Source: Climacium dendroides
Lineage: Eukaryota > Streptophyta > Bryopsida > Hypnales > Climaciaceae
NCBI GenBank assembly: GCA_950106755.1
Contig: OX467090.1
Location: forward strand, 13,081,489-13,145,488
Length of the DNA stretch: 64,000 bases
Direction: 5' to 3'
Each line of letters starts with the position of its first letter. Within the stretch, counting starts at the first letter, position 1. A program made the position numbers and the translations under genes. The notes below the pieces were generated by a model that saw only the letters and a list, made by a program, of their open reading frames with translations, did no database searches and was not told where the DNA came from. Below, piece after piece: positions 16,630-46,601 of the stretch.

Positions 16630-17950
16630 ATGAACCGAATGCAGTCAGATCGTGCAACTGGACGTCCGAGGAGACCTCCACCGGAAAGCAACGCCGAGCA
16701 GCCTGGCACTTCGACCAGGGAGAGACCGCTCAACAGCGTGCAAGACTGTGCCGCACTTTTGCTGGAGGTGAAGGAGTATTTCAAGGATGTTGACCCGAGC
16801 AAGTTCACCGCTTTTGCGAACATCCTGCTGACCCAGAAACATGGAGCGGTTGGTCGTCCCTGCGTCATCAGTCAAGTGAAGGAGCTTTTCCGCGGTAAGT
16901 CTGAAATTCCACTCAAATGGCACATTTGCGACTGCCAATTGCCAAATCACGTCAGTTAGTTTCGTTGTATTGGGGCAAATCAGAATGCCAGTTTAGTAAG
17001 TTCGCTGTCCTTTTCGTCTTTTCACTTTTCATCTTGAAAACGAAATCGACAGTCCATAATTTAGCAATCCTAAATGAGACGCAAATGTAAATGGTCCTCT
17101 TATATGCCGATCCTAGTGCGTACAGTTTCCTGGAGATGAATGTTACACTTGTAGGCGCCTAGCCAGAACGGCACCAATTGTAACGAAATTGACGATTGCA
17201 CAGTCAGCGGTTTTTCCATGATGACTAGCACTGAATCGTGAATTGGAATCAGACACTCTCGTTGAATCAGTACGGTTCTGGGCTCCAAAATTTATGACAT
17301 CCATCAGCTCCAAGCTGATAAAATGAAAACCTAGCTATTAAAACCGGTTTACAGGGTTCAGGGTTTAAGGAAGTAGGGTGTAGCCAGGATTCAGCGAAAT
17401 GGATGTTACCTGAGCGATGGAGAGATAGAAGTTCAATTGTGCAAACCTTTTCGATTTCCATTGCAGATTGCTAATATAGTGGGACCTTCCTGCAGATCAC
17501 ACGGAAATGCTCAAGCTCTTCAACGAGATTCTTCAACCGGACCTCAAGATGCTAATCAAGGAGGACGTGCCGGAGGTCCAAGACCTCGCGAATCTCTATT
17601 TGGCCAAGGTCAAGGCGCGCAGCTCACCTTCAGAGTACACGACCTTCATGCACCTCCTCTACTTGCACAACGAGCGTGCGCTGACCAACGACGAATTCGA
17701 CCAGGAAGTGGAGGTGCTCTTCGCCCACTCCTGCGATTTGCTGGAAGAGTACGACTGCTTTCGACCTGACCGAGCAGCGCACGTCGTGCAATCACCTCTG
17801 CACCCTCGACATTCCGCCTTGGAGGTTTTGGAGCTCCAGAGAGAGCAGCAAAGGGAGCGGCTTCAGCGAATGTGCGAGGACGTTGCGAAACGCAAGCGAA
17901 AGGAGGAAGGGAAGATGGGCAATTTCGTTAAAATGGCGAAATTCCATTGA
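16630..17950 (+). CDS. SIN3-like protein with two PAH domains
   Basis: Two exons, 16630-16894 and 17496-17950 (GTAAGT donor, CTGCAG acceptor, phase 1), give 239 residues. Residues 36-108 (VQDCAALLLEVKEYF, FAN.L, VISQVKELFRDHTEML, FNEIL) match a paired amphipathic helix domain as in SIN3 co-repressors. Residues 113-180 (VQDLANLYLAKVK, FMHLLY, FDQEVEVLFAHSCDLL) look like a second, more diverged one. A basic, coiled-coil-like tail follows. PAH domains bind short helices of transcription factors and act in the nucleus with histone deacetylases. The protein is far shorter than full SIN3, which has further PAH domains and an HDAC-interaction region. The start is the first ATG after an in-frame TAA. 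The last 11 codons (from MGNF) come from the left end of the 28.7-kb transposon; the original end seems displaced to 46606-46644. Confidence 0.7.
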
Positions 17951-19259
17951 AATGGCGGTTTTCCGGTAGCCGAGAAGACCGGAAACTTGTTGAGATGCGG
18001 CTTGCAGGGTTCTTGAAGTGCATACTCTATTGTTTTTTTAGCGCTCATGGGATGGAATGGGGCCCCTCCCCAACTGGGAAGCTCAGATTGAGGTCATGAT
18101 GGAGGATCATACAATAAAAGACTCAAGCATTTTCGACTATTGGAAAATAGGAAAGCCAAAGAGACAGTGCAATGCGGGATTCTTTTTGGGCAATTCATTA
18201 GTCTGAGGTCTTAACTAGACTCCAGTCACTCCACGGTCTCAGAGGAAGATGGCATTGAGGGTCGGTTTAAGGTAGGGGGCTCATGAAGCGACCCTTTACG
18301 GGATGGTCGGCCTTCTTAATGGTCTTTAGATGCCTGAAATTAGTTTACTTTATTTTTCACTTGAAGCAAATCTGATTTGGAATTTAACCCAAGTGGTTTC
18401 ATATTTTTCAGAGCATTTATGAATTACTTATGAATTTTCAAAGAATTCTGCCGTAGGTACCTATTTATGATCCCTAGGCCTTGCAAAACCTACACACGTG
18501 CGGTCTGAAAACAAGCACTGTGGCATGCAAAAATATAGTAGACAAGGTTCCTAAATGTGATGTGTACTAAACCAAACTCCTAAAGTGCCAAGGCCTATTT
18601 CTGGTCCAAAAACACTCAAAACTGCCATTTTTGCTCAATTCATCCAAGGCACCAGAAAAAATAGTTTAAAGAAAATCTAACCATAGGATCTTGTACTTTA
18701 CTTGTATGAGATCACGTGGTAACAATTTCATGAAGTTTGACCATATGGATTAAAAGATATTAACATTCAAAGTTTGAGTGCATTTTTTTTCGGAATGCAC
18801 ACACATGTTTTCAGAAATGGACCCACATTGGCTCTAATTATGTCCCCTATCAAAGTATGAACAAATAATTGATAAATGATAAACCTCTTTTTCATCATCA
18901 AAGGAACATTGATTACCTAGTTACCAACCTCTTAAGGTCCATTTTAAAGCCAGCTAGGGGACGGTCTGAAGAAGAGGGTTGGAATTCCATCCACCTACCT
19001 TAGGGGACATCATCGTCCACGGAACTTGTTGCAATTTCCTCCATCGCCACTAAGAAGTTTGTGTAGCCAAATGTACATGGGAGCAAAGTCCTTGGAAGAA
19101 TTAGATTTTCGAAAAGATTGCAACAGACCATAGAATTTGATTGCCAGCTTACTACTTCCTTCACATAGAAACTAGCACCTACGCGGTCACTTGCCTATCA
19201 CAATTTCCCCAATGGAGGGATCCCCTACAACTTGTCTAATCCTTTTGTTTCAATTTCAT
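17951..19259. other. Left subterminal non-coding region of the giant element
   Basis: No exon is recognised. Two half-palindromes (GCGGTCTGAA near 18500, ACGGTCTGAA near 18970) resemble the element's palindrome. The rest is AT-rich unique DNA. Confidence 0.5.
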
Positions 19260-19504
19260 CACTACAAGAGAAAGTGTCCTAATTGACAGAAACTGACCTG
19301 AATCAACTAGTCCTAATTGACAGAAACTGACCTGAATCAACTAGTCCTAATTGACAGAAACTGACCTGAATCAACTAGTCCTAATTGACAGAAAATTGAC
19401 CTGAATCAACTAGTCCTAATTGACAGAAACTGACCTGAATCAACTAGTCCTAATTGACAGAAAATTGACAAGTTTAGACAATTCGGACACTTTCTCCTAT
19501 AGTG
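19260..19504. mobile_element. CACTA-type MITE with internal minisatellite
   Basis: It starts CACTACAAGAGAAAGTGTCC and ends with the complement of CACTATAGGAGAAAGTGTCC. The 3-bp duplication CAT lies at 19257-19259 and 19505-19507. Between the ends are about five head-to-tail copies of a 34-bp unit beginning TCCTAATTGACAGAAA, the first unit overlapping the terminal repeat. Its terminus differs from the CACTATAAG family at 813 and 1657. It is nested in the giant element and therefore younger than it. Confidence 0.88.
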
Positions 19505-21823: not shown

Positions 21824-23387
21824 TCAAGTTTTTGTGTGGGCATCAGATTTTTTTTTGGGCTTCCTCTTCCCTCTCTGTCGGGTGAAATAATCGTCCCCTT
21901 CTCTAGTGTATTTGCCGACAAAGTCCGGATATTCCAGCACGAGGTGCCTGTCCTGCCACGGGGCTACCACGCGAACGCGCAGTCCCAGATATGTTTGTCT
22001 CAAGGGTATCGTGAGGTGTCCAAAAAGTGCGTTCTGAGACACGTATTGCGACACGCTAAGACCGGATGCGAGCAGGCCTTCGAGATACGGGCGCACAGTT
22101 CCCAAGAGGGTGGAATCGTGTTCACTGCCCACATACGACAAGGGAAACACGGCGTTGTGCACGGGGTTCAGGATGCTGCTCTCCGGAGAGGAATCGATGA
22201 GGAGGGTATTGGACGAATTGGCCCGGAAGTTCTTGGTGACGAACGTCTCGGTGTCCCACACAACCTTGTGCAATACCTTCAGCCGCAGCTACCCCTCCGG
22301 ATGGTCGGGGAACTACATGTAGGTGTTCACGTCGATAGTAGGATCACATGAGATATGGGCGGGGTGCCCCGGGCAGGGTGGGTCGGGAAGGGACGGCAAG
22401 GGCGGGCACCTGCACTCCCACCACGGCCGCCTCTCGATAATGGAGGTGCAGTTCTCCAGCGCGAGGACCCGCATATAAGTGCGGTCGAAGTCGTGAAAGA
22501 GGAAATCGACCATGGGTTTGGCAACGACGGCGGGCAGCCGAGTCTAGATGGAGACGTAAAATCGATTCGTCAAGCCCGTGAGGAAGCGGTGCAAGTCGGG
22601 ACGGCAATGCATCGTGTATTTGCCGAAGACGTGGCGCCGTCGAGGGTGGTAATCCTCCTTCGAGGGCTTCGTCTTCGTGGTCGAGGGAGTTGGCTGGACG
22701 CGCCCAACGTCCTCAATTTGGGCGAGGACCCCTTCCAACTCCAGAAGGACGAAATAACTATACACAGGCAAAGCGATAGGGGGCGCCGTCGCGGACACCA
22801 GCAGTGGAGCCTGCGTATGCAAAATCCCGGCTCAAAGTCCTCTTCTTTATGAAGAAATGAAGTCCACAAAAATGAACATGCGACTCCTCAAGCTTTGCCT
22901 TGCTAAGAGAGAGACGACAACCCCCTCTCTATGAAGATCCTAGTTCTAACCTGAATGAGATGTGCACTTCCTACAAACTATTTAGGCAAGTGCTGGACAG
23001 AGACAAGGAGCAGAGGGTTGCAAGGACATGGAGTCTCACCTTTCTTACATCCGTGGGAGTGGTGGCCGCGAGAGGAGGTGGTGCCGGTGGCGCCAGGACA
23101 GCGAGAGTGTCGACATCTACGAGGGAGGGAAGCACCATCTTCATAGGTACCGGAGTGGCGACCTCATCGACAGCGGGAGCATGGACGTCTACGAGGGAAG
23201 GAGGCACTAAGTTTTGAGGCACCGGAGTGGCGACTTCCAAGTCGACAGGAGGGACGACCTCGACATCAGCAACAGCAGGAGAGCCGACTTCTATGGGAAT
23301 GGCAGGAAGGACTTCATCATTCCTCGGGGCCGAAACGGGAAGTGGGGACAACGGAGACTCGTTGTCACGTGCGAGAGCATCGACAAC
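21824..23387 (-). pseudogene. C-terminal part of the long cargo gene, with three TAG stops
   Basis: The exon at 23387-23040 opens after a TTCGGTTCAG acceptor and encodes a proline/valine/aspartate-rich repeat (VATPVP and PSLVDV each occur twice). It joins in phase to 22810-21824 over a 229-bp intron (GTGAGA donor, ACGCAG acceptor). The second exon reads through TAG at 22544-22546, 22313-22315 and 22289-22291 in one frame, covering LHRFLTGLTNRFYVSI, PMVDFLFHDFDRTYM and LVLEYPDFVGKYTREGDDYF. It ends in a basic tail (KRKPKKK). Each stop is one C-to-T change from CAG. It may be the 3' end of the gene starting at 29580, since a weak GTGGGT donor near 23770 would join it in phase. It could also be a separate gene. 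Family not recognised. Confidence 0.5.
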
Positions 23388-23745: not shown

Positions 23746-26052
23746 CTATGTGTAGGGGTTACCCACCGCGGAAGCCTCGTCGTCCTTGGCCAGCGAGTCC
23801 ACCGGGGCTTGTTCATCTCGTGTCACCGAGGGCTGCGGTGGAGCAACTGCTGCTTGTAGAGGAGCATACTGTTGAGTCAAGTTAGTGAACGAGGCCTCCA
23901 TATCCCCCAATTGAATGTCCAGGTCGTAAGGATCATCGTCGACCAAGCTGGGACGATGCATGGGTTCAGGGACATGAATAAACGGAAACTGACTGAGGGC
24001 CAAGTCATCGTAGTCTGGGTCGCGAGTGACACTCACTGAAATAGTTGCAGGCTCCACGATCCCCAGCAATTGCAGGCCCGACGCCGTTGTGGCCGTCGCG
24101 GAAGCCGAGTTGGTGGTGGACACTCTAGAGAGGTTCTGGATTTCGCTGGCAGGATGGGCCGTGGGAGTGACGGGTGTGGGAGGTGCCTTGGACATCGTCG
24201 AGGTGAACATCTCGAAGCGCTCATTCATAATCTTCAGCATCTCCCAATCGCGCCTCCTGTCCTCCTTGTACTGCCTATCCTTCTCCGCCTACTGCCTCCT
24301 CTGCTCCTCCAACTGCCTCTCCTTCTCGGCGAGCTCGCGGTCCCTCTCTGCTTTCTTGACCTTGCGCTTGGCCTTCTTTTCCTGCTTCAGCTGCTCCTTC
24401 TCCTCTCTCTCCCTCTGGAGGGCCTCGATGGTCTTGGCACACTTCTCGACCACCACGGAATGCTTCCTCTTGTATCGCTCGGACATCATCTCGATGTACG
24501 CGAGGTTGAGGCCCGCCTTCTTGTCCATGGTGTCGGGCTTCGTCTCCTTCCTCCCCACGTCCAAGCTCCCCGACGCCTGAGGTGCGGCCGTTCCACCTCC
24601 AGATGTGGTCTCCGCGTCTAACGGAGTGCAATCCCCCCCTTGGGTGGCAGCCTTGACCATCTGGCTGTACTCCTCCCTGTTTTCCTTCGCCGTGGAGAGC
24701 CGCTTATTCAGATCCTCCTCATCCACGTCGTCAAGGTCAATTGGGTTCTCCTTGGCATTCTGGAGAGCCAAATTGAGCTTCTGCTTCATGGCCCGCACAT
24801 GAGCCAAGAGAACGAGTTCCTCGGGGCCGGCGGGAGGCAGTTGCGACCGCAAGGTATCAACGGCGACATGCACCGTGATGAGCTTGCTCACTCCATCGGA
24901 GTCCAGCGGGGGTCCGGCAGACTTCAACTCCTGAAGAACGCCCTTGACCTTGTTAATTTTTTCATCCATCGATCCCCGCGCAGGTTCGGTGGAGTAGTCT
25001 CTGACGTTGGATCGGACATTCTTCAGCTCCACCCGTTGCTCTTCAGAGAGTCTCGCCTTGAGATCGTCCAACTCCGTCTGGAGATCCTCAATCTGCATCC
25101 TGGGAAGGGCGGGAGGAGAGCCCTCACGAGACGTGCCCGCACTGAAAGATGGGCCTGTGGAGGTACACAGAGCGGGAGTTTTGAAGATGGCGCCGCTCAC
25201 TTCAGACTGCACGGTCTGAACCTCTTGGAGGCGAGGATGACTACGACTCGATAGGGGTGAGGCAGGATCGGTCTGGGCCCTCTGCAGTTCCGGAACTCTT
25301 GCTGGAGGAGAATCGAAACGCAAAGTTTGAAGCTGTGGATGGGAGGATGGAGAAGTGGGAGACAAGGAAGGGGCTGAATCAGACCACCCGCTCTGAACTG
25401 CTGTAGTGGGAGACGCGTGATCAGACCGCATAGTCTGATCGTTACGAGGAGCACCCGCCGATCTGATGGCAACCTCCTCAGACTGTACCGTTGCCTCGCT
25501 CTCCATACGGTTTTGTGACGATTCCCCTATGATTTCAGGGCCGCTATCTTCTTCGTCACGGTCGAGCGTTCAATCATCCAATACGTCTTCATCTAGATCG
25601 TCTTCCTCATCCTCGTCCTCTTCTTCATCTTCGTATTCATCATCATCTTCGAGCCCCTCCACTTCCTCCAATATTGCCCCCCTTTGATGAAGATCTTCTC
25701 CCCTTCGTTCGAGTAGATCTTCTTTGTCCTCCCCTTCCTCTTCTTCTTTGTCCTCTTTTCCCCCCTTGTCTGCTTCTTCATCCTCGACGGGGTGTTCCGC
25801 GTCCACATGCCCAGCATCGACGATGTCCAACGCCTCGTCCGACATGGCTTCCTCTTCGGTTGGTGTGGGCTCCTCCTCTATGGTCAGTCGACACCTCTGC
25901 GTCGGGGACTGCCCGTCGTAGTCGTACTTGAGGGTGTACCCCGACACGAAGACATAAGGCCACATTTCCGCACCAATTCGCTGATGCACGGAATGGAGGA
26001 GAAGGGCTTTCTCAGTGGAGATCATGAAGGAGACGGAACTGCAACACAACAT
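23746..26052 (-). pseudogene. Acidic and coiled-coil region of the long cargo gene
   Basis: One frame runs from an acceptor (TTCTGCAG, exon start 26052) to 23746 and is broken by TGA (25570-25572) and TAG (24289-24291). The first part finishes the methyltransferase-like region (STEKALLLHSVHQRIG). Then come an extreme Glu/Asp stretch at about 25580-25800, a Ser/Pro/Gln-rich linker, and a long charged coiled coil (REREEKEQLKQEKKAKRK, AEKERQLEEQRRQ) ending near 24230. The linker contains four copies of T-(V/M)-(Q/R)-S. Three of them are encoded by DNA palindromes of the element's family (25201-25220, 25379-25396, 25421-25438). It follows the exon at 26162 through a 109-bp intron in phase 0. Coding GC is high relative to neighbouring DNA. 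Confidence 0.55.
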
Positions 26053-26161
26053 CTGCAGAACACAGTGTTAGTGAAGGGACAAAACGTGAATGTGGAATAT
26101 CTATTCTGACAAGCCAAAAAGCCCCTGCAAAGAAAAAAAACACGAGTGGTGAAATCATTAC

Positions 26162-29100
26162 CGTGCATGCTGAGACTGCTTTCACTCCAGCGAAGACGAG
26201 CATGACCGTCCCTTGATCCCTGCAGAACTTGTCGATGAAGCGCAAGTACACGTCGTACCGTAGCTCGCGCTTGGACAGGATCCGAGGGAAATCGTGGCGG
26301 CAGACCTCCCGAGTCTTATACATGGGATCCGTGGCTATGAGGTCGTTGTCCTCATCCTTGGACAATTTGGGCACCTTGCCTTTAGCGTCCACCAACTTGG
26401 AGTTCATGAAGCTCTTGGCACTCCGCTGCAAGTACATGACCTTATCCCTGTTCCTCTCCTTGAAGGTCGGCTCTCCCTTGCAGATCATGTAGTCACATTC
26501 CCGCCTAAGTGAATAGGACGGGAAGAGCTCCGTCGCCAATCTGTCCACCGCAGCCGCCCGCTTCGAGTTGAAGATGAACATCCACGTGTGCACGGTCTTG
26601 GACATAGTGGATTTGGAGACCTCCCTCACTTCCTCCATGATTTTTGCGTGCCCGGAAGTGACCTCCATGCCTTCCACCTTCAGAAATAGTCGGAAGTCAA
26701 TAATGCCGACCTCGCAGTACTCCGTCTTCACGGCTCCAGTTTCCGATCGATACGGTGACTACACCCCATTCTTATGCACGTACAACTGTGGGTCAAAGTG
26801 CTTCTCGCTTCGTATCCATCGGCAGACGGTGGCTCGGGAGCACTTCCTGACCTTCTCGCATCGGTCGGCATTTTGCACGACCTGATCCAATGCCGCCAGG
26901 AATGGCTTCTTGGGCTTCTCCACTGTCCTCCCTGACCGGCATTGGGACTTCACCCAATCCAAACCGAGGCTTATGAGATGCCACATGTGGAAGCCACCGA
27001 TGCACAACGTGGTCTTCAGATTCCGCCAAGCCTTGACATTCATGTCTCCCGGCTCGGGGAATACGCCCTTGGCCTCCTCGATGCCGAAGGTGTCGGCCTT
27101 GTCGACAATCTCCTTCGCCAGTTGCATCTTGTGCTTCTTGTTTGTGCACCACATGAGGAAAGGAATGGCCGACGTCTAGACCGTGGGTCTCTTGTTGAGG
27201 TACACCTTGGGCGGCACGTCCAGGATTTTTTGGGCCAGCTCGCCGACGGCGTCATCTTCCATTCCGAGCAAGGCCTTCATCATATTATTCGTGATGGGTT
27301 GGAACTTGTACACCTTGGCGTTCCCGTCCTTGCTCACCGCTTCATTGAATGGACCGCCCATGTCCGTGTCGTGCAGCGTGCCTTGCTCGTGAGCTTCAAA
27401 GACCTTCAGCCAAGCCGACCATGTTTCCTCCGAGGCCATGATGATTTTCCTCTCCCCCATCTTATCCAAGTCGTATGTTCTTCGATTTCCAAACAGCGGC
27501 TTGAGGAGGCCGGTGGACTCGAAGCTCTGTTCCGCCTTGTCTCGGAAGTCCTGCACACCGCAATTGACTAGGTTAGAGGATCACAACTCTGAGAACATGC
27601 ATCAGACCTCCCGCACTAAGCTTATTTGAATGGATCTAAAGGACAGCATCCTAGGTATACAATATGAAAGTTCAGAGCGGTCGCTCTGAAGTGGCTTGGA
27701 TTCATTCCATTACAGTGGAACAATGTGATACGATTGTGCCATTGTCCAAGGCATTGGAACAACATGAATGTGGACTCGACAATATCTATTGTATTACAGA
27801 TCAGACCGGGCGGTCTAAACTGACCAAGTGGAGGAGACATACCTCATAGGCCTTGAATTCGTCGCCTTTGTCCGCCTGCCTCGTGTTCTTCCGGAATTGG
27901 GTTGGTCTCCGCGCGTTGTCCCACAGATATCGGCAATGGCGGATCGTGGCAGGGAGCGACGACAAGTACGGGCCGGTGACGTTTCCGTCATTGCACTTGC
28001 AGAAGAGCGCGTGCAGGTGGTCCTTGTTTTTGGACCAGACGATCTCACAAGTCCACTTTTGCACCCGCTTCTTGACCGCCTCATCGTCGACGGATGCTGT
28101 CCCTGAAATGATTCCGGTCGCAACCTTCCACGTGTGTTGGCCATTGATAATTTTCAGTGGGAAGGCCTTGATGCAATCCGCCCAGCAGGTAGGCCTTCTG
28201 GCGTGTCCGGCATGACGGTCAGGATTTGCTTGGTGAAGTTGACCTTCACCATGCGGGCGAGGACGGCTAGGACACCCTTCTTCTCCAGTGGCCTGAAGAT
28301 CATGCCCGAAGTCTCGTCGGCACTTGTCATGTCCTCAAGGTCCAGCTCGAAGAAGTTGTCCCGTCCGAATATGTACATGTAGGCGGACAACTCCTTGAAC
28401 TTCTTGTTCGCCACTGCCTCGGCCTTGAGGCGTTTCCGGGCTTCCTCTTCTTCGCTGCGCTTGAGCTCCTTCTTGATCTCCAGATCCACAAACAGCTTAT
28501 CCGGAACAGCTTTCTCATCGAACGGCAAGGTCACCGGGTTGTGAATCCAGTGGCCATTCACCTTCTTGAATGCCACCTTCTGTGCCTCCTCTTCGGATAA
28601 GTCGGTGGACTCCGGGAGGCGCTCTGCGTGGATGCGCTTGGGGCACCTTCACCCTCTTCCACATCGTACAAGGTCCGTCGTGTCTTCTGAAAGCGGGATG
28701 CCCCTTCATCATGTGAGGCCGAGTCGTCACCGGTGGCGACGGTTGCGGACTTCCTCTTCCGCGCCTTTTGTTTGTCCCGTGCCGTGGGCTTGGGACGCTC
28801 TGCTACTACCATGCTAGGCAGATTGGGCCGGGATGGAGGGGATCGGGATGGTGTCGTCTATGGCGCCACCGTTGCGGGAGCAGACCGTGCAGGTTCAACC
28901 GGTGTATGAGTTGTCATGCCTGCGGACCCTGGCAGCGCTGACGCTGCTGGCGGCCGGGAACGGGTTGCAGGCACCGAGGCGGACGCGACCGCTTTTTTCT
29001 TCTGGGTCCGCCCTTGCGCATCCATGTCGACGTTCCCTACTCCCTGTGATGCGTTACCACTAGTCAGCGACGACACGTATAAGGTGTTTGCATTAGTGAG

Positions 29101-29580
29101 GTACGCGCTCGCGACCTGTGCGGTCTTCATGAAGTCCCCAGCGTGCGCTTCGCACCTAGCTTGTATGTCCAACATGAGGATTTGGAACACATGCGGAACC
29201 CGGTCATAATTTTTGATGAGGCGCTCATGGCAGAATATCATCTCGTCTTCTACGCGGATGATGACTACTCCCAGAGCATTGTTGCATGAATTCACTACGT
29301 CGACGAGAACGGCCTCTCGCATCACAGTAATGTTAATGACTACCAAGTTCTTAAAGGATTTCCATCTAGGCCCTCCGAATTTTGTGAACCCCAATTCTAA
29401 ATTAAATATCAGGGAGCCGTGAAGGTAACTCATTTCCACAGTCCACAATGCTTTGGTTGCAATGAAGGTCAGCGGAATTTTCCCTTCAACGTGCGCCTTC
29501 CACGACTCCATTAGCCGCTCAAGCGGTATTTGTGTAATGTAGCCCGTGAGAGGTGGCTTGCTCTCGAGGAAGGACTCCAT
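26162..29580 (-). pseudogene. ParB-like and DNA-methyltransferase-like cargo gene, broken
   Basis: Exons 29580-27843 and 27550-26162 (GTATGT donor, GTGCAG acceptor) continue into 26052. The first exon has TAG at 28858 and apparent one-base frameshifts near 28640 and 28190; the second has TAG at 27176 and 26759. A ParB/sulfiredoxin-like region includes WIHNPVTLPFDEKAVPDKL, then MIFRPLEKKGVLAVL and, at 28128-28151, IINGQHTW. CEIVWS, a CKCNDGN-type stretch and HCRYLWDNARRPTQF follow. Further on, EVGIIDFRLF (26680-26720) sits where a beta-class adenine/cytosine methylase would have motif IV. FIDKFCRDQGTVMLVFAGVKA (26180-26240) sits where it would have motif I. Both motifs are degenerate (DFRL for DPPY, FAGVKA for FxGxG), so catalysis is doubtful. 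Start: first ATG after a TAA in frame. The family call is from motif memory only. Confidence 0.5.
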
Positions 29581-29690
29581 GTCACTGTCCACATGAATCA
29601 AATCAGACCGGCCGCTCAGAATCAGACAGGCCACTTAAAATTGCAATCTTCTCAGCGGCCCCGTATTATTGGGGTTCTAGCCCTTCGATT

Positions 29691-31865: not shown

Positions 31866-32045
31866 GGAGCCGAACCAAAACCCAACCTCCATGAAACCCA
31901 AACCGAAGCTGAAGCGAACCTCCGCCGAACCTGAACCCAACCCCCTCAAACCCAAACCAAAGCTGAACCGAACCTCCGCCGAACCTGAACCCAACCCCCT
32001 CAAACCCAAAACGAACCCAAAACAAACCTCTGCCGAACCTAAGCC
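31866..32045 (+). repeat. 54-bp minisatellite
   Basis: About three head-to-tail copies of a 54-bp unit around CGAACCTCCGCCGAACC and CCCCCTCAAACCC, the last one degenerate. Confidence 0.8.
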
Positions 32046-34920: not shown

Positions 34921-36163
34921 TCAACGATAGTGGCGACGGGACGCTCGACGCTCAGGTGTGAGGTTATCCAAATTTGCTTGTGCTTGATTGAGCCGGGCAC
35001 GAAATTCATCAAAAATATCCGTTCCAAAGTGAATTGTTTGAGACTCCCTATGCAAATGTTCAGTCCCGTACTTGTCATCCTAAACAATGAAGTACCAATA
35101 AGACATATTTCAATGAGAAATCTTTTATAAATCCTTCAAAATTCAAAAAATCACAACATTACCCAAGAAATTGACATCATCAAAAATTCAATATCATGAA
35201 AAAAAAAATCAAAGAATGAAGAGATATCGAAGGGCATCATTTTTTCCTTTGCTATTGGAAGGTCAAAAGCAATGTATATTACAAACCTCAATGAGTTGTA
35301 GAAGCAAGGAACCATTCTTGGATGCGGCGAGCTCATCCTCATCATCAAATTCCTCCATGAAAGCCCTACATGCCATGTGAATCAAGACATATTATCATAT
35401 AAAAAATTAACATGTCTAAGTACGTACATACTGAAATCTCAAAAACCAAGCAAAACCTTTGCAAACCTAAACAATTATCAACAAATGAACTAAAAAAGAA
35501 ACAATGCTAACAAGAATTGAGCATCAAAATCAATCAAGAAATGTTAATATATAGTATAGCATGTTGTACTTGACAACCAAAAAAACTCACCGAAGGTTTG
35601 TGCAATCTTTGTTGTAACGCACATGGACATACTCCTCCATCATGGCCCACACATCTCGAATTGCAGCATCAAATTGTGCTCCCCAAGGAACTTCAAGTGT
35701 GCCCTGCAATGCACACATAACATGACCTGCAACAAGAAACCAACAAAGATTGCACTAAGGAACAACCATGCATGTGATACCTACATATTATCCAAAACTT
35801 AGAGTTTTGCACATGCTTTTGAAGTACACAATTCTACAAATGGAAGAAGGAAAACATAACCCATGTAGTATTTACCCATCTTGGTGTCTTGGAACATCTC
35901 CTTAGACGTCTCGCAGTGAGAATAATGGGCAAAGCAATATAGCTTGTAGCCTTGCCAAAAATCGCGAGCCCTATTTCAAGCAATTTTGAATCAATTCCAA
36001 TGAAGCAATCATAAGTATGGTAGAAAATCATGCAACAGCTGCAAACGCAGAAAGCCCAAAAAACATGTGTAGAAAAAGAAGAAGTCACTTACCCAAAGTC
36101 CTCATTGTCCAAAAGAACTCTAAGCTGCTCAGAGCACTTACTGAAGTTTGCAGCGCTAGCCAT
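34921..36163 (-). CDS. Intact five-exon gene, unknown function (179 aa)
   Basis: Five exons on the minus strand join without a stop: 36163-36093, 35970-35876, 35726-35591, 35365-35287 and 35079-34921. All introns are GT-AG (donors GTAAGT, GTAAAT, GTGAGT, GTTTGT) and phases agree at every junction. The protein starts MASAANFSKCSEQLRVLL. It contains FGARDFWQGYKLYCFAHYSH, an aromatic/acidic middle (GTLEVPWGAQFDAAIRDVW, MEEFDDEDELAAS) and a basic end (PERRASRRHYR). There is no signal peptide or membrane segment, so it is probably a small soluble, perhaps nuclear or DNA-associated protein, by charge only. I do not recognise the family. An acceptor (ATTGTAG) 29 bases upstream of the ATG suggests a 5' untranslated intron. 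This is the only clearly unbroken gene inside the giant element. Confidence 0.7.
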
Positions 36164-37911
36164 TGAATCTGTTTAGAACCAAAAGTGCCCTACAATGAAA
36201 CACATCAACCCTACTAATAGGTAGAGAGTGAAGATGAGGCAATCCTTCCACCAAATCCTTAAGCCCTAGAATAAAGAGATGCAAAATTGTTATTCTATTA
36301 CAATCAACAATCCTTATCTTTCAATTTGCAACATCTTACTAAAAATCACTGTTGCATGCATTTTCTTAGGTTCCACATCTTTGTTTCTTGCTAAAAAACA
36401 TGATTTAGAAAGAATATAGACCAAGAAGAACAATGAAAAAGACAGATGAGCCCTTACAAGAGCTCTTTTATAGCATACAATCTCACAAGAATGAAAAAGA
36501 AAAAGTCTTAAGAAAATATAAATCTCTTCTACATGTGCTAACAAATACAAAATGAGAACTTGAAGGCTACTGAGAAGTTGCAAATGAGAAGCATTCCCAA
36601 TGGAATCTCAAAACCACTTTCAAGTGGGTTCATTGACATTGGAAATTGACTACATTGGAAACTTTTCCGCAAACCTTAAACAAAATCAAGAAACCTTTCT
36701 TTCTTCTCTACCACTTAAAATTCCAGCATTTCTATTCCCAAACTCGAAATGAAGAAATCTCAAGCTATTATAGAAGATGTAGCGAAGTGGTGATGGTGGC
36801 AAATGAAGCCACGATGAAGGCCATAACAACTATTCTTTGGAGTTCAAACCCGAAAACAATTGCTGAGGATTATGGAAATTCAAGAGTAGCGGTGAACAAA
36901 CCTTCTCGAAGTGCGTGCGATTGTGATCTCCACATGCAATGTCCTCCGCTCTCACCCTTTTGCTATAGAACTTGCTGGAGCGTTGTCGACTCCCTTCACC
37001 GGAGGCAAATGACTTTGGGAAAGTAGTTGGGGTTGTGCAAAAATATCTTGTACCCTTCGAATGCAAAAACCATGCGGTCGAGAACTGGTTCTGACAACAC
37101 ACTGAATAACCTAGCGTAGCGACTGGCGTAGAAACTACGCGTGATAGAGATGTCTGAATTTTTTAATTTTATTTATTTTTTTGTCGAATCCAACGTGGCC
37201 CTACATTGGCGACGTGGCAGCCGCCATATGCGGCTGCTACATTGAAGTACAGCCTCATAATACAAAACCGAAACCGGCTTCTGTCATTCTTCTTTCGTCG
37301 TCTGCAATTGTGTATGTCGATATTAGAGCGCGCACCGCTTTCTCCTCTTCCGTCGGCGTTGTGCAGCACGTTGTCGACCGCTGGAGGCCATCTTTGTTGC
37401 TGAGAAGCGCCAATGACGTCGTACGTCCTCATTTCAGGTTCGATGAACAATTTATCCCCTGTTTCTCTTCTCTGGGTTCGCAGGATTGTTTTTTGTCTCT
37501 AAGAACTCAATTTCAACGGATTTCAACAAATTTCATGTTTTTCTTCAGTTATTTCGCATCTGTAGTACTGCCTGAGCCACATTCCTAGAATCTCACACTA
37601 GCAACAGGTGAGGCGTGTCTTCGCGTTAAACAAAATGCTGCATTTGCTGAAATGCGAATTTTAGAACTGTGCTCATTGTAGTTTGTGCTCATTCGGTTCC
37701 GAATTTTAAAACTGTGCTCATTCGGTTCCGAATAGTTATTCACATTCTCGTAGACAATCAATTATCCACAGTGCTGTGGTATTTCAGAGTCATGATTTAT
37801 ACAATGCTGATATACCTTAGCATTATCATCTATTACATGAGACAAAGTTCGGATGGCATTCCGTCCAGATTGATTTATGATAATTAGTGTCACCCGAAAT
37901 TAGTGTTACTC
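36164..37911. other. Upstream region of the five-exon gene
   Basis: Mostly unassigned. A minus-strand stretch at about 37005-37075 reads MVFAFEGYKIFLHNPNYF up to a GTGAAG donor and could be an extra first exon of the five-exon gene or another small gene. I could not find a fitting acceptor. Two ACGTGG-type G-box cores lie near 37190-37215. A near-repeat of GTGCTCATTCGGTTCCGAA occurs at about 37680-37740. Confidence 0.35.
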
Positions 37912-38604
37912 AGTTCAGGGCGTCCGCTCTGAACTGAACGTGGGGTGACAATTGGGAAGCAATATGACACTCCGTTCAGTTCAGAGCGCCCGCTCTGAAC
38001 TGAACGTGGGGTGACAATTGGGAAAGCTATCATCCGTTCGGTTGAGAGCGGTCCCTTTGAACTGAACGTGAGGTGACGGAGACGAAATCTATCCTCCGTT
38101 CGGTTCAGAGCGACCGGTCTGAATTGAACGTGAGGTGACGGAGACGAAAGCTATTCTCCGTTCAGTTTAGAGAGGCCGCTCTGAACTGCACGTTAGGTGA
38201 CCGAGGCGAAGGCTATCCTCCGTTCAGTTCAGAGCGGCCGCTCTGAACTGAACAGAGGGTGACAAATCATGAACTCTCGGAACGGAGGGTGACGGAGCTT
38301 AGTGACCCTCCCTGAAGTTCAGAGCGGCCGCTCTGAATTGAACGGAAGGTGACGGAGCTTTGTGACCCTCCCTGGAGTTCAAAGAGGCCTCTCTGAGCTT
38401 AAGAGAGGATCACAGAGCTCCGTCACCGTCTGTTTCGAGCGTTTATGATTTGTCACCCTCTATCCAATTCAGAGCGGCCGCTCTAATCTATGTTTTGCAT
38501 GCGCATTATTTATATCCTAGTCCTCCGTTTTCCCAATTATGCGCGATCACGTGGATGAATTACGCATGCATCCTGTTCCTCGCAGTTCAGAGCGGCCGTT
38601 CTTA
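37912..38604 (+). repeat. Palindrome array 2, tandem about 62-bp units
   Basis: About ten copies of the TCAGAGCGNNCGCTCTGA palindrome, here inside a degenerate tandem repeat of about 62 bp. The spacer reads GAACGTGAGGTGACGGAGAC with variants, followed by CTATCCTCCGTTC. Good copies: 37912-37935, 37979-38001, 38224-38250 and near 38316. Later copies (38376, 38468, 38583) are eroded and irregularly spaced. In array 1 the spacers are unrelated, so the palindrome itself, not a larger satellite unit, is the conserved part. Confidence 0.9.
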
Positions 38605-39791
38605 ACTTGTCGTACGCGCAGTTAGCCGTAAGTATCCTTACAACGACAAATGGTTGCAAGATGACACGAATTATCGGTCCAGGAAACTCTAGTATGATAT
38701 CGATTGAATTAGAAGTATCCGGATTGTGACTACTCACTTAATCACCCTCATTTCACTTACCCTATCTCGTTCCGGAAACTTAGTATATTCCAGATTCCGT
38801 TCCGGATCCGGACACACCCGGATCTGAGTTCCGTCTCTCTTCCGTCACTAGTTTTTGTTGCCTCTGTTTTACCCTCAGAGGATCCGCCCTTGATCTAGAA
38901 AGGGGTGGGGACTCACAACTTGTACAATTATCCTCTCTGTACTCTAAATCTACTTAAACAACACACCCAAGACAACATAGTTGTAGAAGGAGGGAGGAAT
39001 ATGCTCTCACAGTTTCCGGATTGGCCGATCCGGAATCAAGTCACACAGAGCACTTTTCACACCTCTCTTACTACAACGACGGATCAGAACTTATAGACCC
39101 AAAAGAATAGAATCTCAAGGAAAAGACAATTTACCAAGGGGGGAGGTTGGCAGACTTTCCGAAGTAGTGGGAGATCTTTTCTTTTGACGGTTGCTTAACT
39201 CCGCACAGAACCCTCCTGGTTCCGGACTCGCAGGGACTTCTACCATCTTATCCGGATTGCCGTTCCGGCAATTTAAAAGCACGTCACACTTACACTCCCT
39301 TACTCGGCTTGCATTCCTTCTCACTAGCTCCACCCCCAGATGGTCCGTAGCTCAAGATCCGGATTCCTCCTCTCCCTCCCTTCTCTTTCTCCAGTACAAG
39401 GATACAAACATACATACATACACTGAGCCAAAGATTCCGTCTAGGCAGAGTGCAGCTAGAAGCACCTTGGCTAACTTAGATTAAGAAAAGGAAATCGTAA
39501 TACATACGTGAAAGCACTAAGATTGAATGGAGTAGGATGGAATGGAATGGCAGACAACTAACTTGCCTGCCCTTAAAATACTAACACAAAAACCCAAAGT
39601 CAACTCCTAAAAGCCTGAAAAGGAAACCCGGAAATCCAGGCCACCAATCCCTGAACCTCCCGGGATATCCGGGTAAATTGCTAACAGCCGTCCGAGATAA
39701 CCGGATTTCCTTACTATCCGCCTAAAATTCCGGAAACCGGGTCCAAGCTCGGAACCCCATTCCGGATCCTATACTTCTTCTCCTACCAATC
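38605..39791. other. TCCGGA-rich non-coding flank of the gag-like gene
   Basis: No exon is supported. The hexamer TCCGGA and close forms (ATCCGGAT, GTTCCGGAAC, ACCGGAAT) recur far above expectation by eye, continuing through the gene on its right up to about 42050. Whether this block is a nested element is unclear; I found no terminal repeats. Confidence 0.5.
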
Positions 39792-41741
39792 CTAATGTCT
39801 TGGCTTCCGTCCTTTCTTCGAACGACTCCCCGCTTGGCTGGTAGGCGTTCCCTTCGTGTTCTTGGCTGGCGTAGTTCTTGCTGTGGCCCGAGTCTGGATA
39901 TGGCGCGTTGCTGGAGACGGATCGCTGTCGTCTTCGGTTCCGGAAGTGGAGTGGGCACTCTCCTCATCAGAATCTTCAATAACTTGGACTTCCTTCTCCT
40001 TCTCTGGTGTTGTATCCTCCAACATCGCGGGTTCGCTTCCTTTCTCCGGCGTGGTTTCTTGCATGTGTACAAATCCTTTCGGATTAGTCCGAGCCGAATT
40101 TGTCATCCCACCGATCCGGTTGATGAGATCTCCCCTAATCTGCTGTCCCGGAACCTTGAATGATCCGGCCATCAAATTTGGCATTGTTTGTGCCTTGGGA
40201 ACTTCCGGAGTTGAGAACTTAGATGGCACCGGAACCGATTTCGCGCTAGACTCTGGTTCCGGTTCCGAGGCTGGCCTCAAATTCAACTCCGTCATCCGTA
40301 TCTTACTGGCGGAAGGCTCGGCTGGTGTGAGTATCCCCCTCAGGCCCTCCATCCGGGTTGCCTGATCCGCCACTGGCTTTCCTGGGGTACCTGCGACAAA
40401 AGGAAGTTCCGGAAAGGTGGAGAAATCCATCGCATGGTTTGGGTCGATGGCCGCCAGCAACTTCTGGATCTCCTTGAAAACTCGCTCTATTCTCGCGGTG
40501 AAGTCTACGAGGATGGTAACTACCTTGGTTCCGATAATGTGGCCTTCGGATATCATCTTGGAGTCAAACAAGGCAGCTTTCGTGATGATGTCGGCTTTGA
40601 TGTTGACTGCCCCGGTTAGATTCTTGACCAGCGTGAGGGCCTCCTTCTCTTTCTCCTTCGCAGCTACCATTTCTCCGTCCGCCCAATTCACCCGGGCCTG
40701 GAGTATATTCCGTTCCGCCTCCAATTCCTGGATCCGCTCATCCCTCTTCTTCAGATCCTCCGGCTTGGGCAGTCGCTTGACAGCTTCCACGATCTGATCC
40801 GGATCCACCTTCAGTACTTCTGCGGTATCTATCACCAGATCCGACAATCCGTCGTGAAGTACCTTGGCTTCACGTATCCACTCGAGCCCCGCATTGAAAA
40901 ATGCGGATTCTGTTTCCATCTCAGGTCCCTTGTTGGACTCCCCCCTCTCCATTGCTAGTGGCTTGATTCTCGACCCCGGATCGGTTGACTTCCTCTTCTT
41001 GGTCCTTGGGTCCGTTAGACATTCCTCGGAAAGTTCCTCCGGTTCAGACTCGACCGGATCCTCCGCTTCCTCCCCGGAAAGTCCGTATGACAAGAGCATC
41101 TTTCCGGTGTCATACTGAATTATTTCCGCCGCACTCAAAAGTTCTTGTTGATGGTACAGATGAAACAAATACGTGCTAACTGGACTCGCCTTAGCTCGGG
41201 TCACGTGATCCGCTAATTTAGCCACTATCCCGGCTATGATCCTACCCCAGTGCACTATCCGGTTCTCCATAGCCCCAAAGATAGTGTTGGCTACCGTAAT
41301 AGTAACCCGCGTTGGCTTTTTCGGATATAAGATCGGAATCAAAAACTCTAGGATCCGCCTATGTCTCTCATCCTTACACTCGCTGATAGCAAAGCCGTCC
41401 TTAGGGTTTGCAGTCCCGGTGAACTTCCCGGCTACAAAACGGTCCGTCCTCGATGCTAAACCATTCCCACTCTTCCGGAACTGATAAACATCCGCCTAGA
41501 TGTCCTCGGTCCATGCGACTGGGCGTCCTCTCAAAGTAAGCTCATACTGATTCGGAACACCATGAAGTAGCTCTTGAATCATCTCCTCACTCTTGAGATT
41601 CCACGGTCGGTGTAGTAAACCGACACATCCTAACCTAGTCAAGTCCTCCTCTAATTGCTTGTGTAGTTCCGGGCTATTCGGAATGGCCAGAGAGATAACC
41701 CGGGCAGATACCGCTGTCTTCCGTACTGGTCCGGATGCCAT
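39792..41741 (-). pseudogene. Gag-like gene with one in-frame TAG
   Basis: One frame of about 650 codons from ATG 41741 to 39792 is interrupted only by TAG at 41496-41498, one C-to-T change from CAG. The N-terminal part (IPNSPELHKQLEEDL, ELLHGVPNQYELTLRGRPVA) recalls the plant mobile/gag-type N-terminal proteins of transposon genes. The middle has a coiled coil (KKRDERIQELEAERNILQAR) and an amphipathic segment with IERVFKEIQKLLAAID. The C-terminus is disordered, Ser/Thr/Pro/Glu-rich, and ends in a basic tail (SRSKKGRKPRH). No protease, reverse transcriptase or integrase motif follows, so it is not a complete retroelement. It reads divergently from the transposase-like gene at 42808. The coding region shares the TCCGGA-rich composition of its flanks. 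The gag comparison is a structural impression, not a motif match. Confidence 0.5.
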
Positions 41742-42807
41742 AAGATCTAAGTGAGAATGAAGGGAAAGTAGTTCTACCTTAGTCGCTAACTCACCACTCT
41801 TTCTCTCAACTACTCACACAAACAGTCTCGGGTACATAGAACAGAAAAAGGAAGAGGAAACCCTAGGAAGATGGCTTAAGTACTAAACTGTCTCTCTACG
41901 GTCTTAAAGACAACGGCTATAGGTCCGTTGTCTCAACAGTATCCTACTTCCGTAGCTACGGGACCTATACGGTAGGTTCCTGTGTTCCGGATGAGTCCGG
42001 ATTCCAGATCCGGATAAGTTCCGGTTACGGGTGGTGCCGGAACGCTTATTTCCTAATTCAAGTTATCTGGTCAAAAATCACACTCTAACTATAATTTTTT
42101 TTATTTTATTTTTATTTTTCGCACCTACTTCTTGCAATATTGATCCGTTTCCGGATTCCCACATAACTATTATTCGGTGGGGCTCTTTCTTGGAGACTCT
42201 GGACTGTTCAGCATTCATTGTAGGAACGAGTTCTTCTTTGTGATTCTTTACATTGTGTTGTCTATCCTTTGGCGCGCTTCCTCTATATTGGGTGTGGAAC
42301 AATATCTGCGAGAGGTGTAACTCTTCCACGCAGTTCAGAGTGGCTCAGTGAACAGGCCTTGGGGGAATTTGTGCGTAGGGTTCCAGTCTCCTCGGACTTA
42401 GACTGTTCGGTCCATACTCATGTGCGGTTGATTGTCTTTCTTGGACATAGTGGCATTGCACTGCGGAATGGGGTCCACGGTAGTCGACGTTCTATGGGAA
42501 CCGTTAGTTTCAGACTTCATTGCATTCTATACCAAACCTCACAGCAAGTGGGCGGGTTCGAGACAGTTGCTACACTATTTCATACTGTATTTGATTATGT
42601 AATGATGTCCTCATATTCACCGCTTTCGCCACTCGCCTATTTGTCATTTCTTCTAATACTTTTTATTTTACTACTGTCAGGCGTATTAGCCCTTGTGGGC
42701 TGAACAAAGAGGACGTATATGCTACCAATTCTTTCAAGTGTCACTCTCATGCTTCCTACGAGGCCGCTATTTTCTATTAGAAAACACTTACGATTTTAAC
42801 GTCTCCT
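41742..42807. other. Divergent intergenic region
   Basis: This lies between the gag-like gene (minus) and the transposase-like gene (plus), so it should hold both promoters. TCCGGA motifs continue to about 42020. A half-palindrome (CAGTTCAGAGTGGCTCAG) lies near 42331. An open frame at 42269-42703 has a hydrophobic end but no other support. Confidence 0.4.
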
Positions 42808-45800
42808 ATGTTTTCTTCGGACGACTCTGATGGTGATGAGGTATTGTATATAACTTTCTACTCTCGTTAGTTTTCACATTTCTTATTGTACATTGCGTTC
42901 CTTTGTCGTTGATGTCGTATCAATTCTTCATCGTTCGGTGTGCAGGGGTTTGCAGAATGTCAGGAAGAGGACGTGGACTTGGAAGCATATGCCGAGGCAA
43001 ACGTAGACAATAGTTCCATCCCAGATTGCGAGGGCATTGATCGAGACGGATGGTCTGGGAAGGCATTGCTCGCAAAACATGCGGACGGCTCCGACTTTGC
43101 GGAAGTCATCATCATCAATGCCAATCCCAACGTTTGCATTGATGGACAGAGCAAGCTGGGGATGGATGACGTTGGCATTGTTGTCTTGGACGTGTACAAC
43201 GGGGATCCCAACGTCGGAGATATGTGCTTGCGCTGGCCTATGCGGCAGGTGTTTCACCACGGCGAAAATGGGTACGTCAGTGTTTACGATCACGCTCGCA
43301 AGCGAGAAGCTCTGGATAAAGAAATGGAAGGGGGTAGAAAAAATGGGGGCGTGCGACGGTATCGTTATGATAGGAGAGCTCGAGCTGTCGCTTTACTAGA
43401 TAAGAAGACGAAGATGGTATCACATGAATCCATTGCAGAGGTCTTCACACAAATCTGCTGCGATAATTAATGCACTCGTAAGTTCCGTCCTTCTACCATC
43501 CGTGTGCTTCGCGCGGAAATGCACCTACAGACATTTCAAGTGAAATCTAGCAAAAATTTGGATGTTCATAGGACAATGCACAAAGCGGTTCCGAGGGGGA
43601 GGCAAGTTGTCACCTTAGAAGGCATAGACGTCTGTCCACGTGCTTGGAGGATTCTTCACAACATCCCCCTCCGCACATTCGAAAGATACAGGGCCAAGGC
43701 CAAGGCTGGCGTCAGAGGCGCTCCACACGGGAACTCCAATCGAAAAAAGACAAGGACTGCCACTATTCAAGGCATCGAGACTTTGCACTCATTATTGGAG
43801 GCAATGGCCGACCACATGCCCCATTTGTCTCGCACCTTGCCCACTGGTGAAAAGGTTTGCCTCAAAGTTCTTCCAACCGGTACCGAATGGAGGCAATTAC
43901 TAGCCACCGTGAACAAGGTACGGCTCGCAATGTCACCTATGGCATTCATATGAAAAGGACATGGTCGAATTGTCGCATCGACCACAATAGCTCATAGAGT
44001 CCTCCAACATCCAATGAAGTGCTTGTTGAATACGCAGACTGAGTGTGCATGTTTCTATTGTTTGTAGGCCAATGAAGAACTCGGGCTGTCGACACTCTCG
44101 CAATCATGTTTTAGTAAAATTCGAACAAAATATTTTGCTGAGTACGTCGTGAAGGGAAGGGGAGATTCCTTCGCAAGATGTAGCATTTGTGACAATCTAA
44201 AGCAACTACAAGCTTCTTTTGCTCCTGGATCGGAGGACTATCAACGAATCCAAAGGCGCTTCGAGAAGCACTTGTTTCTACAAGAAGCTTGTCGACATGC
44301 CTACTACCGTAGTAGATGGTTGTCCAAATTACGGCCTATGCAACTTTTATCTATCATGCATGACAAAATGGATCATTCAAAAACAACATGTCCTGCATTG
44401 GCAAGGAAAACAAAAGCCCTAGATGGGTTCATGAAGTTGCCCGTGAAGGTATCAGGGATTTTTGCACATGGACACGGGGATGGCAAATATGCACATTACA
44501 ATTTGGACGTGTTTCCCAGCGACAACAACTTCACAGTGGGATCCATCGCCAAATTGTTACGAGATTTAGAAGGGCCCCCCGCAATGTCTTCACGGACGTT
44601 GTTCGAAGGAGCCGAAAGCACGGAACTATATCGAGCGTTGCTGCAAGGTAGCGAGATCTGTATTGATTCTTTGGGAGCTGTTCCTCCTCAACCTATTGAG
44701 GCTCAACCATTGCCACCGGTACTACACGTTCAGATGGACAACTCTTGGAGGGAAAACAAAAACAGGTATGTTTTCTGTTTTTGGTCCCTGTTGGTGGCAA
44801 GACGCATTGTGAAAGAAGTGGTGGTATCCTTCACGATAGTGGGTCACACCCATGATGACATGGATGCATCATTTGGGCAATGGAGCATGCAACTCCGCGA
44901 GAAAGACCATCCCACCCTACCATCATTGATACAATCCTACATGGAAATGGAACAAGGTCCGTTCATTCCACATCTAATTGAAGAAGTGCCCGACTTCAAG
45001 GCCTATGTCAAACCTTATATTGGGATGCACAATAAACAATTGGTGGGCCACTCTCATAGGAGACAGTACAAATTCTTCATGGATGACAACGGATGGCCTA
45101 TCATGCAATACAAATTGGCGTGTACAGACATTCCATGGTTGCCTGAAGGGGGATTGAAGCTATGGAAGGAAGATGTCGACCATAGACCTATACTTCCTCA
45201 AGGTGATCCACCGCGCGTGACCCCCAAGAAGATGACAAACGAAGCTGAGATTTTACGTGGACTTGATGGATACATCCAACATTGGAAAGACATATCTGAA
45301 GAAGATGGGACGGTGGAGTACAAAACCCACATGTCAAACTTGGTCACGTATTGGACCCGCGTGAGAAATGCCATGCTGGATGGAGGCGAAGAAGACTCCC
45401 TCCAATCTAATGAATTGCAGCAAGGATTTTGGCCTCAGACTCGACAACCCGGAGATCTTATGACAGATTTCATGCAAGATGGAAGGACACGTCAAGAGTT
45501 GGAGGCCGAAGATCCTTACATTGGTACTCTAGAGGGAAGGCCCCTACCAGCATACAATGTAGTCACTGATGTTCATGAGGGATTCTACCTCTTTGTGAGG
45601 CCAGGATTGGATTGTCTTGAGCCCGTATGGCTCGGAAGGGCAGTAGAAAATCCACAATTTGATCCCACGGCCGTTCACTTTCGCGAAGTCTTAGTGCAAT
45701 GGTACACCCCATGTGGAACATCCAAAGATGTGCAACGGTTGTATACGGGGTGGGACACAAAGCCTAATTTTAGATGGAAGATTGACCGAACGGCCGACAA

Positions 45801-45945
45801 AGCTGACTATGTTTCCACAGATAGTATCATGGCATCATGGAAACCAAAGAAGAACGATGGAAATAGTTTCATTGCTCCTCGTCAACAAGTGCAATTTGCA
45901 GTGGATCATTTACGTCGAATTGTTGAAGAAGAACAAGGTTGGTGA
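42808..45945 (+). pseudogene. DUF7869-like DDE/D transposase gene with one in-frame TAA
   Basis: Three exons, 42808-42840, 42946-43917 and 44068-45945, join in phase 0 (GTATTG/TGTGCAG and GTACGG/TTTGTAG). The only stop inside is TAA at 43468-43470. Past it the frame continues CTRKFRPSTIRVLRAEM. The N-terminus is acidic (MFSSDDSDGDE). Next come a GIDVCPRAWRILHNI-type segment and CSICDNL. Then MHDKMDHSKTTCP (D at 44362), HVQMDNSWRENKNRY (D at 44737) and GHTHDDMDASF (44854 on) follow. These three blocks match the DGMDQ.K, LDN..RENKNR and GHTH.D.D signatures I know from DUF7869 proteins and would supply an RNase-H-fold acidic triad. Its place 0.65 kb from the right terminus fits a transposase. 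C-to-T decay of CAA would explain the TAA. Confidence 0.65.
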
Positions 45946-46601
45946 ATATGAAGTCCTGGGAGACAACTATTCCAACAGTCATATTTCATGCTTGCGATGC
46001 CCCTTTGTATTGTAGAAGGTGGACCTTCACATATTATGCAACAGGTAGTGATAGTTTTTCTCGTCCGATGACATTGCAACGGATTGTACAATTTTGAATA
46101 GACTGTAGGCATCATAGGTTGCCTAGTCCTCGATCTTTGTATGCAACCTCCATTTTGTTCAATCTGAAATACAAGTTTTTGCCCTTCTGTTTTGCATCCA
46201 TTCCAACAAGACATATTTTAGATACCAACTTCACTGACCACGCACTCATGAACGATGCAAACCTAAACAAGTACCCAAACTTGTGCCCATCATGATGATG
46301 ATCCCCCCCCCACTTCAATGGGCAATGACCCCCATGTTAAGCACCAACAACTCCATGACAAGATTTCCACGTTCTACCTATTAGTCTACCATGACTTTCA
46401 CTAACAACATCTATAGTCATTGTCTTTTGCACAAGTCCTGTATAGAAATCCTAAGGATTTGCACTCGTATGCAAGGGGCCCATTTGCCACTCACTACCGC
46501 TACGCCCAATGACTAGTACATAGCACAATACAAAGGCAAGTTAATGGTCGCTCATGTCAAAATGGCACATGGAATACCGCCATTTTAACGAAATTGCCCA
46601 T
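45946..46601. other. 3' flank of the transposase gene and right terminus
   Basis: Gene-free. The last 44 bases (46558-46601) are the right terminal repeat: ATGGCACATGGAAT then the complement of the ATGGGCAATTTCG terminus, as in the MITEs at 5489 and 7554. Confidence 0.6.

Follow-up and report, generated by a model that had tools for sequence, protein, structure and literature searches.

What occupies the 28.7 kb that separate the two parts of the last exon of a PAH/SIN3-like gene in the moss Climacium dendroides, and did it enter the gene as one piece? The stretch of DNA analysed here, which we call the window, is 64,000 nucleotides long (C39:13081489-13145488); within it the exon breaks off at position 17914 and its frame resumes at 46606. 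A first-pass annotation, made from the letters alone, had read the interval between as a cargo-carrying giant DNA transposon with its own transposase and non-autonomous relatives. We conclude that the interval is very probably one copy of a multi-copy, presumably cut-and-paste DNA transposon that is bounded by terminal inverted repeats (TIRs) and has a core of about 25 kb and a putative transposase of the DUF7869 family. We base this reading on asymmetric left (L) and right (R) termini, a 4-bp target-site duplication (TSD) at each copy, collinear content, a large number of copies and an empty paralogous site. The element is filed here as a TIR DNA transposon and is not given to a named superfamily.

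Termini, target-site duplication and related MITEs

The window copy (17915..46601, + strand) measures 28,687 bp, or about 25.1 kb without a nested insertion, and was delimited by its TIRs and TSD, by collinearity with six other copies read whole and by the empty site. Its terminus, ATGGGCAATTTCGTTAAAATGGCG, is found at 17915 on the + strand and at 46601 on the - strand, so that the annotated 24-bp inverted ends 28.7 kb apart do agree at 24 of 24 positions; the extended match comprises 31 of 33. GAAG is present on both outer sides, as also annotated, at 17911..17914 and 46602..46605. When duplication lengths of 1 to 11 were compared in this copy, the flanks matched at 4 only, apart from a trivial match at 1. 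Two 4-mers from flanking DNA are equal by chance with a probability of 0.0054, and three of three with 1.6e-7. The termini begin with ATGGGC and fall into two types. The L-type terminus, ..GGCGAAATTC.. or a close variant, lies at 17915..17947 (+ strand) and forms a 33-bp match to the R terminus in which the outer 24 bp are identical. The R-type terminus, ..GGCGG[TC]ATTCCATGTGCCATTTT, lies at 46559..46601 (- strand). Each giant element carries one end of each type.

The same holds for each of the miniature inverted-repeat transposable elements (MITEs) that share these ends. Two lie in the window outside the giant element, one at 5489..5800 (- strand, R-type left end, L-type right end, TSD ATGT) and one at 7554..7901 (+ strand, L-type left end, R-type right end, TSD CTGG), bearing out the earlier claim of common termini and 4-bp duplications. 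Both have at most one mismatch to the giant element in the first 13 bp of the terminus, and the R end of the MITE at 5489-5800 has 41 of 43 bp in common with that of the giant element by a count made by eye. All seven MITEs with both ends assigned (the two in the window, one each at loci L041, L042 and L043, and two at L045) have a 4-bp TSD and are 309-358 bp long. Under the Repbase rule, non-autonomous elements belong to one superfamily when their termini agree and their TSDs are of the same length (PMC4455052). Because the first 11 bp agree with at most one mismatch and the TSD length is equal, the MITEs and the ends of the giant element would fall into one superfamily by that rule. The common end types and TSD length support the view that the MITEs are non-autonomous relatives.

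The interrupted gene and its element-free paralogs

The host exon runs from 17480 to 17914 ahead of the insertion and from 46606 to its stop codon at 46644 (both + strand). Among PDB sequences, the part ahead of the insertion finds SIN3/PAH proteins, pst1 being the best of them at E=7e-4, and Pfam PAH scores a sub-cutoff E=0.96; an exon further upstream is likewise PAH-like (Sin3a among PDB sequences, E=0.018; Pfam E=0.025, below cutoff). The PAH identity of the gene is thus read from PDB sequence matches, the Pfam scores being sub-cutoff. The resumed frame has 13 codons including the stop and is weak by itself as a sign of an interrupted exon, an earlier claim that is borne out by the same continuation in paralogs without the element.

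Those paralogs also provide the empty site. A comparison of flanks among the fetched loci gave no empty site, and a genome-wide search found one: C39:13194679-13194847 is 98% identical to the joined flanks over all of their 169 nt, which include a single GAAG where the flanks meet. At two other places on C39 the match covers positions 1-120 of the joined flanks, and so spans the join (position 95), with identities of 97% and 94%. In L061, the closest paralog, one GAAG stands at the junction and the exon frame runs on to ..KRKEEAKAVVTEPKQHCLS; L062 and L063 have a longer C-terminus than L061, and L063 has one base changed in the target sequence. The empty site is therefore paralogous, not orthologous, and belongs to the same genome; the first-pass annotation had proposed to look for an empty PAH gene in another strain or species. 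Because the paralogs on C39 show the junction uninterrupted, the split gene is one of at least four PAH/SIN3-like paralogs on that contig, and the element entered one of them. The annotated split of a SIN3-like gene's last exon therefore stands as regards the insertion and the SIN3/PAH matches, with the correction that the gene has at least three local paralogs. A 26-bp tandem repeat follows directly after the host stop codon (46643-46807); L062 and L063 lack it, and its presence in the empty L061 indicates that it predates the insertion.

Further copies in the genome

We searched the genome (412,615,100 bp) with the exact 13-bp terminus, which occurs 291 times in forward and 284 times in reverse orientation, compared with 0 + 0 for the reversed control. 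Twelve further giant copies, E1-E12, were drawn from 100 of these 575 places (contig C1 and part of C2); six were read whole and six by their ends, which with the window copy makes 13. Each of the 13 is flanked by an exact 4-bp TSD and carries an L-type and an R-type end. The TSDs are GAAG, CTAG, TAAT, TCGT, ATGT, CAAG and CAGT in the seven copies read whole, and TCTA, AAAT, ACTG, GTGT, ACAC and ACTG in the six read at their ends. The first-pass annotation had suggested looking for intervals bounded by this terminus with matching 4-bp duplications, and all 12 examined besides the window copy are such intervals, 24.8-36.9 kb long. In BLAST comparisons at E<=1e-5 the joined flanks of the 13 copies are not similar to one another, which suggests independent insertions.

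The content between the ends is common as well. The seven copies read whole (25,075-28,831 bp) are collinear, with pairwise differences of 0.022-0.048 within aligned blocks (95-98% identity). In the six copies read by their ends (24,831-36,922 bp), all 12 internal pieces, sampled at about 3.7 and 10 kb, match E6 at 95-99%, 11 of them over nearly their whole length. The exception is the E7 piece taken at about 10 kb: its match spans 1,215 of its 1,401 bp and lies some 2.7 kb away from where it was expected, which would fit an insertion ahead of the sampled piece. Copies with different internal content right up to the termini, which the annotation had named as a refuting outcome, were not seen, nor was its other refuting outcome, two termini that are independent MITE fragments: the 13 copies agree wherever they were read.

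These data bear on the simplest rival, that two independent MITEs flank 28.7 kb of ordinary DNA by chance. MITEs with these termini are common, and convergent terminus pairs without a TSD do occur, at 13.8 kb, 2.0 kb and 988 bp (the last being the outer ends of two adjacent MITEs). Locus L048 had no convergent terminus pair. On contig C1, a spacing of 24-37.5 kb is found in 11 convergent pairs, where random positions would give 0.47 and a divergent control gives 5; because the termini are clustered, spacing alone is weak evidence. One of the 11 uses the right end of E4 and is no separate copy, and the other 10 all have a TSD. Against a chance pairing stand the matching TSDs of all 13 giant pairs, their common content wherever it was read, and a paralogous site that lacks the whole 28.7 kb and has a single GAAG. 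We regard this explanation as next to impossible. The giant DNA transposon reading is supported by the 13 TSDs and the empty paralogous site.

Content of the core

The left half of the core holds four open reading frames (ORFs), all on the - strand and with approximate borders, that we consider putative cargo. A NIF/FCP1-like phosphatase lies at 21824..22887 (interrupted in the window, open in E6; PF03031 at E=5.6e-11 in E6 and at 1.3e-11 for the window pieces read through). It is followed by ORF-C at 23746..26067 (acidic/coiled coil, 771 aa open in E6), ORF-B at 26150..27535 (about 460 aa) and ORF-A at 27801..29634 (611 aa open in E6, broken in the window). In Pfam, the best matches of ORF-C (E=0.0028) and ORF-B (E=0.016) are below cutoff, and ORF-A has none. 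Readings of ORF-A and ORF-B as ParB-like and DNA-methyltransferase-like, which arose from motifs seen by eye, found no support in Pfam, PHROGs or PDB sequences and were given up. All four ORFs are interrupted in the window copy; for each of them there is at least one other copy in which it is open. They recur in the seven copies read whole, and the earlier description of a cargo-carrying element is supported, the cargo role itself being putative.

Also present in all seven are two arrays of palindromes of about 20 bp, array 1 (TTCAGAGCGNNCGCTCTGAA type) at 29602..31067 and array 2 at 37914..38605. With up to 5 mismatches, the consensus TTCAGAGCGGCCGCTCTGAA has 36 sites in the window, of which the element holds 31 and the two MITEs 5, with none in the other 34.7 kb. 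Each copy read whole has 24-35 sites at up to 4 mismatches, scattered ones included. The arrays flank an AT-rich middle (31100..37900) that is part of the core and collinear with E6; it gave no coding signal in the four ORFs scanned or in the substitution test described below.

An element of this size with several genes is in the range of viruses and Polinton-like elements, which raises the alternative of an endogenised virus or a Polinton/Maverick-like element with TIRs. Among the ORFs scanned with Pfam, however, no viral, polymerase, capsid or integrase family was significant, and the best PHROGs match, with ORF-A and ORF-B as the only queries, had E=0.065. The TSD is 4 bp, the 24-bp terminus has no exact match in viral contigs, and no protein relatives were found there. 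We consider a viral or Polinton origin very improbable. One palindrome match was seen in a viral contig (L002).

A putative DUF7869 transposase

Near the right end lies a gene with exons at 42808..42840, 42946..43917 and 44068..45945 (+ strand). Their borders were set by eye, from GT..AG introns and from an intronless relative (L001) for exon 1. Exon 3 encodes 625 aa, is open in the window copy and belongs to DUF7869 (PF25273; E=1.9e-43, 148.7 bits against a curated cutoff of 26). Exon 2 is free of stops in four and exon 3 in two of the seven copies read whole (stops only; frameshifts not counted). A genome search with the exon 3 protein returned at least 71 matches, including the window copy, with 70 of 2019 candidates scored; at least 48 of the matches span residues 1-625, and a hand count found 28 of these without a stop. 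At one place in the genome (G000 C35:23860399-23869688), two 74%-identical transposase copies point in opposite directions, separated by about 5.6 kb.

What links this gene to the termini is their joint divergence. We read the stretches downstream of four relatives that are 72-75% identical. In three of them a complete, related R end (86-88% over 42 bp) lies some 0.5 kb beyond the gene, from which we take it that the gene and its terminus were not parted over a long period of divergence. The fourth (L067) shows an R-end-like match of 44 bp at 93%, with the outermost 5 bp missing. Mainly because gene and R terminus co-diverged, the DUF7869 protein is most likely the transposase. The annotated claim of the element's own transposase is thereby strongly favoured, on sequence rather than biochemical grounds. 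No named transposase model in Pfam matched the exon 3 protein, nor did a hAT, MULE or PIF-Harbinger transposase domain at E<=1. The Pfam description of DUF7869 gives no function, and a full-text literature search on that name alone found no paper. Exon 3 is 44% identical to L001, an intronless 963-aa frame, and has acidic residues in common with it (D99/D102, D224 and D263/D264/D266) that form a candidate triad by eye only. The 4.3-kb contig that encodes L001 comes from a prokaryote collection, is titled cyanobacterium and is probably eukaryotic contamination. It has a different family of palindromes of about 21 bp (TTTAGCTCGA.TCGAGCTAAA type), with three near-perfect sites ahead of the gene (shuffle mean 0.04) and weaker ones after it.

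The relatives also bear on a second rival, a macrotransposon, in which host DNA trapped between MITE ends was amplified, the DUF7869 gene and the ORFs are passengers and another transposase moves the element. The AT-rich middle has a host-like composition, and exon 3 shows no selection signal in the present copies, both of which this model would accommodate. The related R terminus kept past the gene in three of the four stretches argues against it, and we think it very unlikely, if less so than a viral origin.

Constraint on the reading frames and points of doubt

Raw dN/dS was set aside because noncoding stretches too gave about 0.5-0.9, and we used a context-matched neutral model that keeps mutation type and CpG context. 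Amino-acid changes were fewer than expected in transposase exon 2 (observed/expected 0.86, p 0.043), ORF-A (0.88, p 0.014), ORF-B (0.87, p 0.046), ORF-C (0.93, p 0.043) and the NIF-like phosphatase (0.87, p 0.034). Of 16 controls (12 shifted-frame and 4 noncoding), none reached p<0.05.

Several observations weigh against the reading of a giant transposon with a DUF7869 transposase and retained cargo. The five p values are weak and uncorrected. Exon 3 itself has no deficit of amino-acid changes (observed/expected 1.00, p 0.54), stop-making changes are depleted in none of the six exons and ORFs (p 0.16-0.96), and they exceed expectation in ORF-C (15 against 10.5) and the NIF-like phosphatase (8 against 4.6). 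Several cargo ORFs have stops in most of the seven copies, and exon 2 of the window copy has one in-frame stop (43468-43470). The predicted structure of exon 3, with a mean pLDDT of 33, is unusable for recognising an RNase H-like fold or a DDE triad. Palindromes of the window type were absent from the 4.5 kb read upstream of a diverged relative (L068). Selection on the ORFs is thus only weakly indicated by the substitution patterns. Given exon 3, the weak p values and the undepleted stop-making changes, a fair reading is that the copies now in the genome mostly show decay, following a weak constraint that once acted on their source copies.

Nested insertion and other repeats

The window copy contains a nested insertion at 38608..42163 (3,556 bp, TG..CA, 5-bp duplication TAACT) that is not part of the core and, by a reading of its junctions, is absent from E6. 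It holds most of a CCGGA-rich block and a 567-aa ORF (39792-41495), which was rejected as cargo because it is contained in the insertion. No internal direct repeats were found in it, and a solo LTR (long terminal repeat) would be a guess. Other repeats in the element are 34-bp tandem repeats in its first 2 kb (19256-19497), with borders that look CACTA-like by eye, and a 185-bp inverted repeat (20188-20739) with inverted cross-matches at the same place in other copies. Outside it, long blocks at 2979-5400, 12520-15210 and 54092-54904, repeated in inverted and direct orientation with a similarity of about 81-97%, are probably another repeat family, and an interval at 813-1040 with CACTATAAGAAA termini and a 3-bp duplication is CACTA-like by eye.

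Proposed mechanism and comparison with known systems

We propose that the DUF7869 protein would recognise the termini of about 24-43 bp and move the element, which would insert with a 4-bp stagger, and that the same protein may mobilise the MITEs of about 0.3 kb, which keep one L and one R end. ORF-A, ORF-B, ORF-C and the NIF-like phosphatase could be cargo that has been retained or could serve accessory functions, and the palindrome arrays may be where the transposase, or else an accessory protein, binds. A wider interpretation is tentative and, in our estimate, rather doubtful: that the DUF7869 elements are an undescribed superfamily and a plant counterpart of cargo-carrying giant elements, that the core of about 25 kb is kept whole by selection on several cargo proteins in source copies, and that the element's own proteins read the paired palindrome arrays, which would serve for recognition, escape from silencing or maintenance. 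If plants have a family of this kind, with dozens of similar copies, an empty site, open transposase frames and conserved cargo, DUF7869 would gain a function and the retention of cargo by a 25-kb element would become testable; such a family could also account for many of the 575 exact termini in the genome.

Giant cargo-carrying DNA transposons have been discussed mainly for fungi and some animals. The Starships of fungi are very large and carry cargo along with their own mobility gene, a tyrosine recombinase captain. The present element resembles them in its size and in its putative mobility gene and cargo, but it has TIRs and a DUF7869 protein, no Starship tyrosine recombinase domain was found with Pfam in the ORFs scanned, and the likeness implies no relationship. 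Polinton/Maverick elements have a protein-primed DNA polymerase, an integrase and a 6-bp TSD, in contrast to the 4-bp TSD here and to the lack of polymerase and integrase domains in the scanned ORFs. CACTA/EnSpm elements of plants are large and may carry gene fragments, but they have CACTA-type termini and a 3-bp TSD; the present element departs from them in its ATGGGC termini and its 4-bp TSD. TSDs are 8 bp in hAT, 8-11 bp in MULE and 3 bp in PIF-Harbinger elements, from which the element differs in TSD length and in having no such transposase domain. Sola and some other superfamilies do have a 4-bp TSD, with which the TSD length of the present element agrees. With eukaryotic TIR DNA transposons that have MITEs, the element shares TIRs, a fixed TSD length and the coexistence of large members with members of about 0.3 kb, and it goes beyond that plan in its palindrome arrays, its additional ORFs, of which there are several, and the length of its core, about 25 kb. 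Among DUF7869 proteins (PF25273), the one described here is distinguished by a gene that is linked with defined termini and with a TSD of 4 bp.

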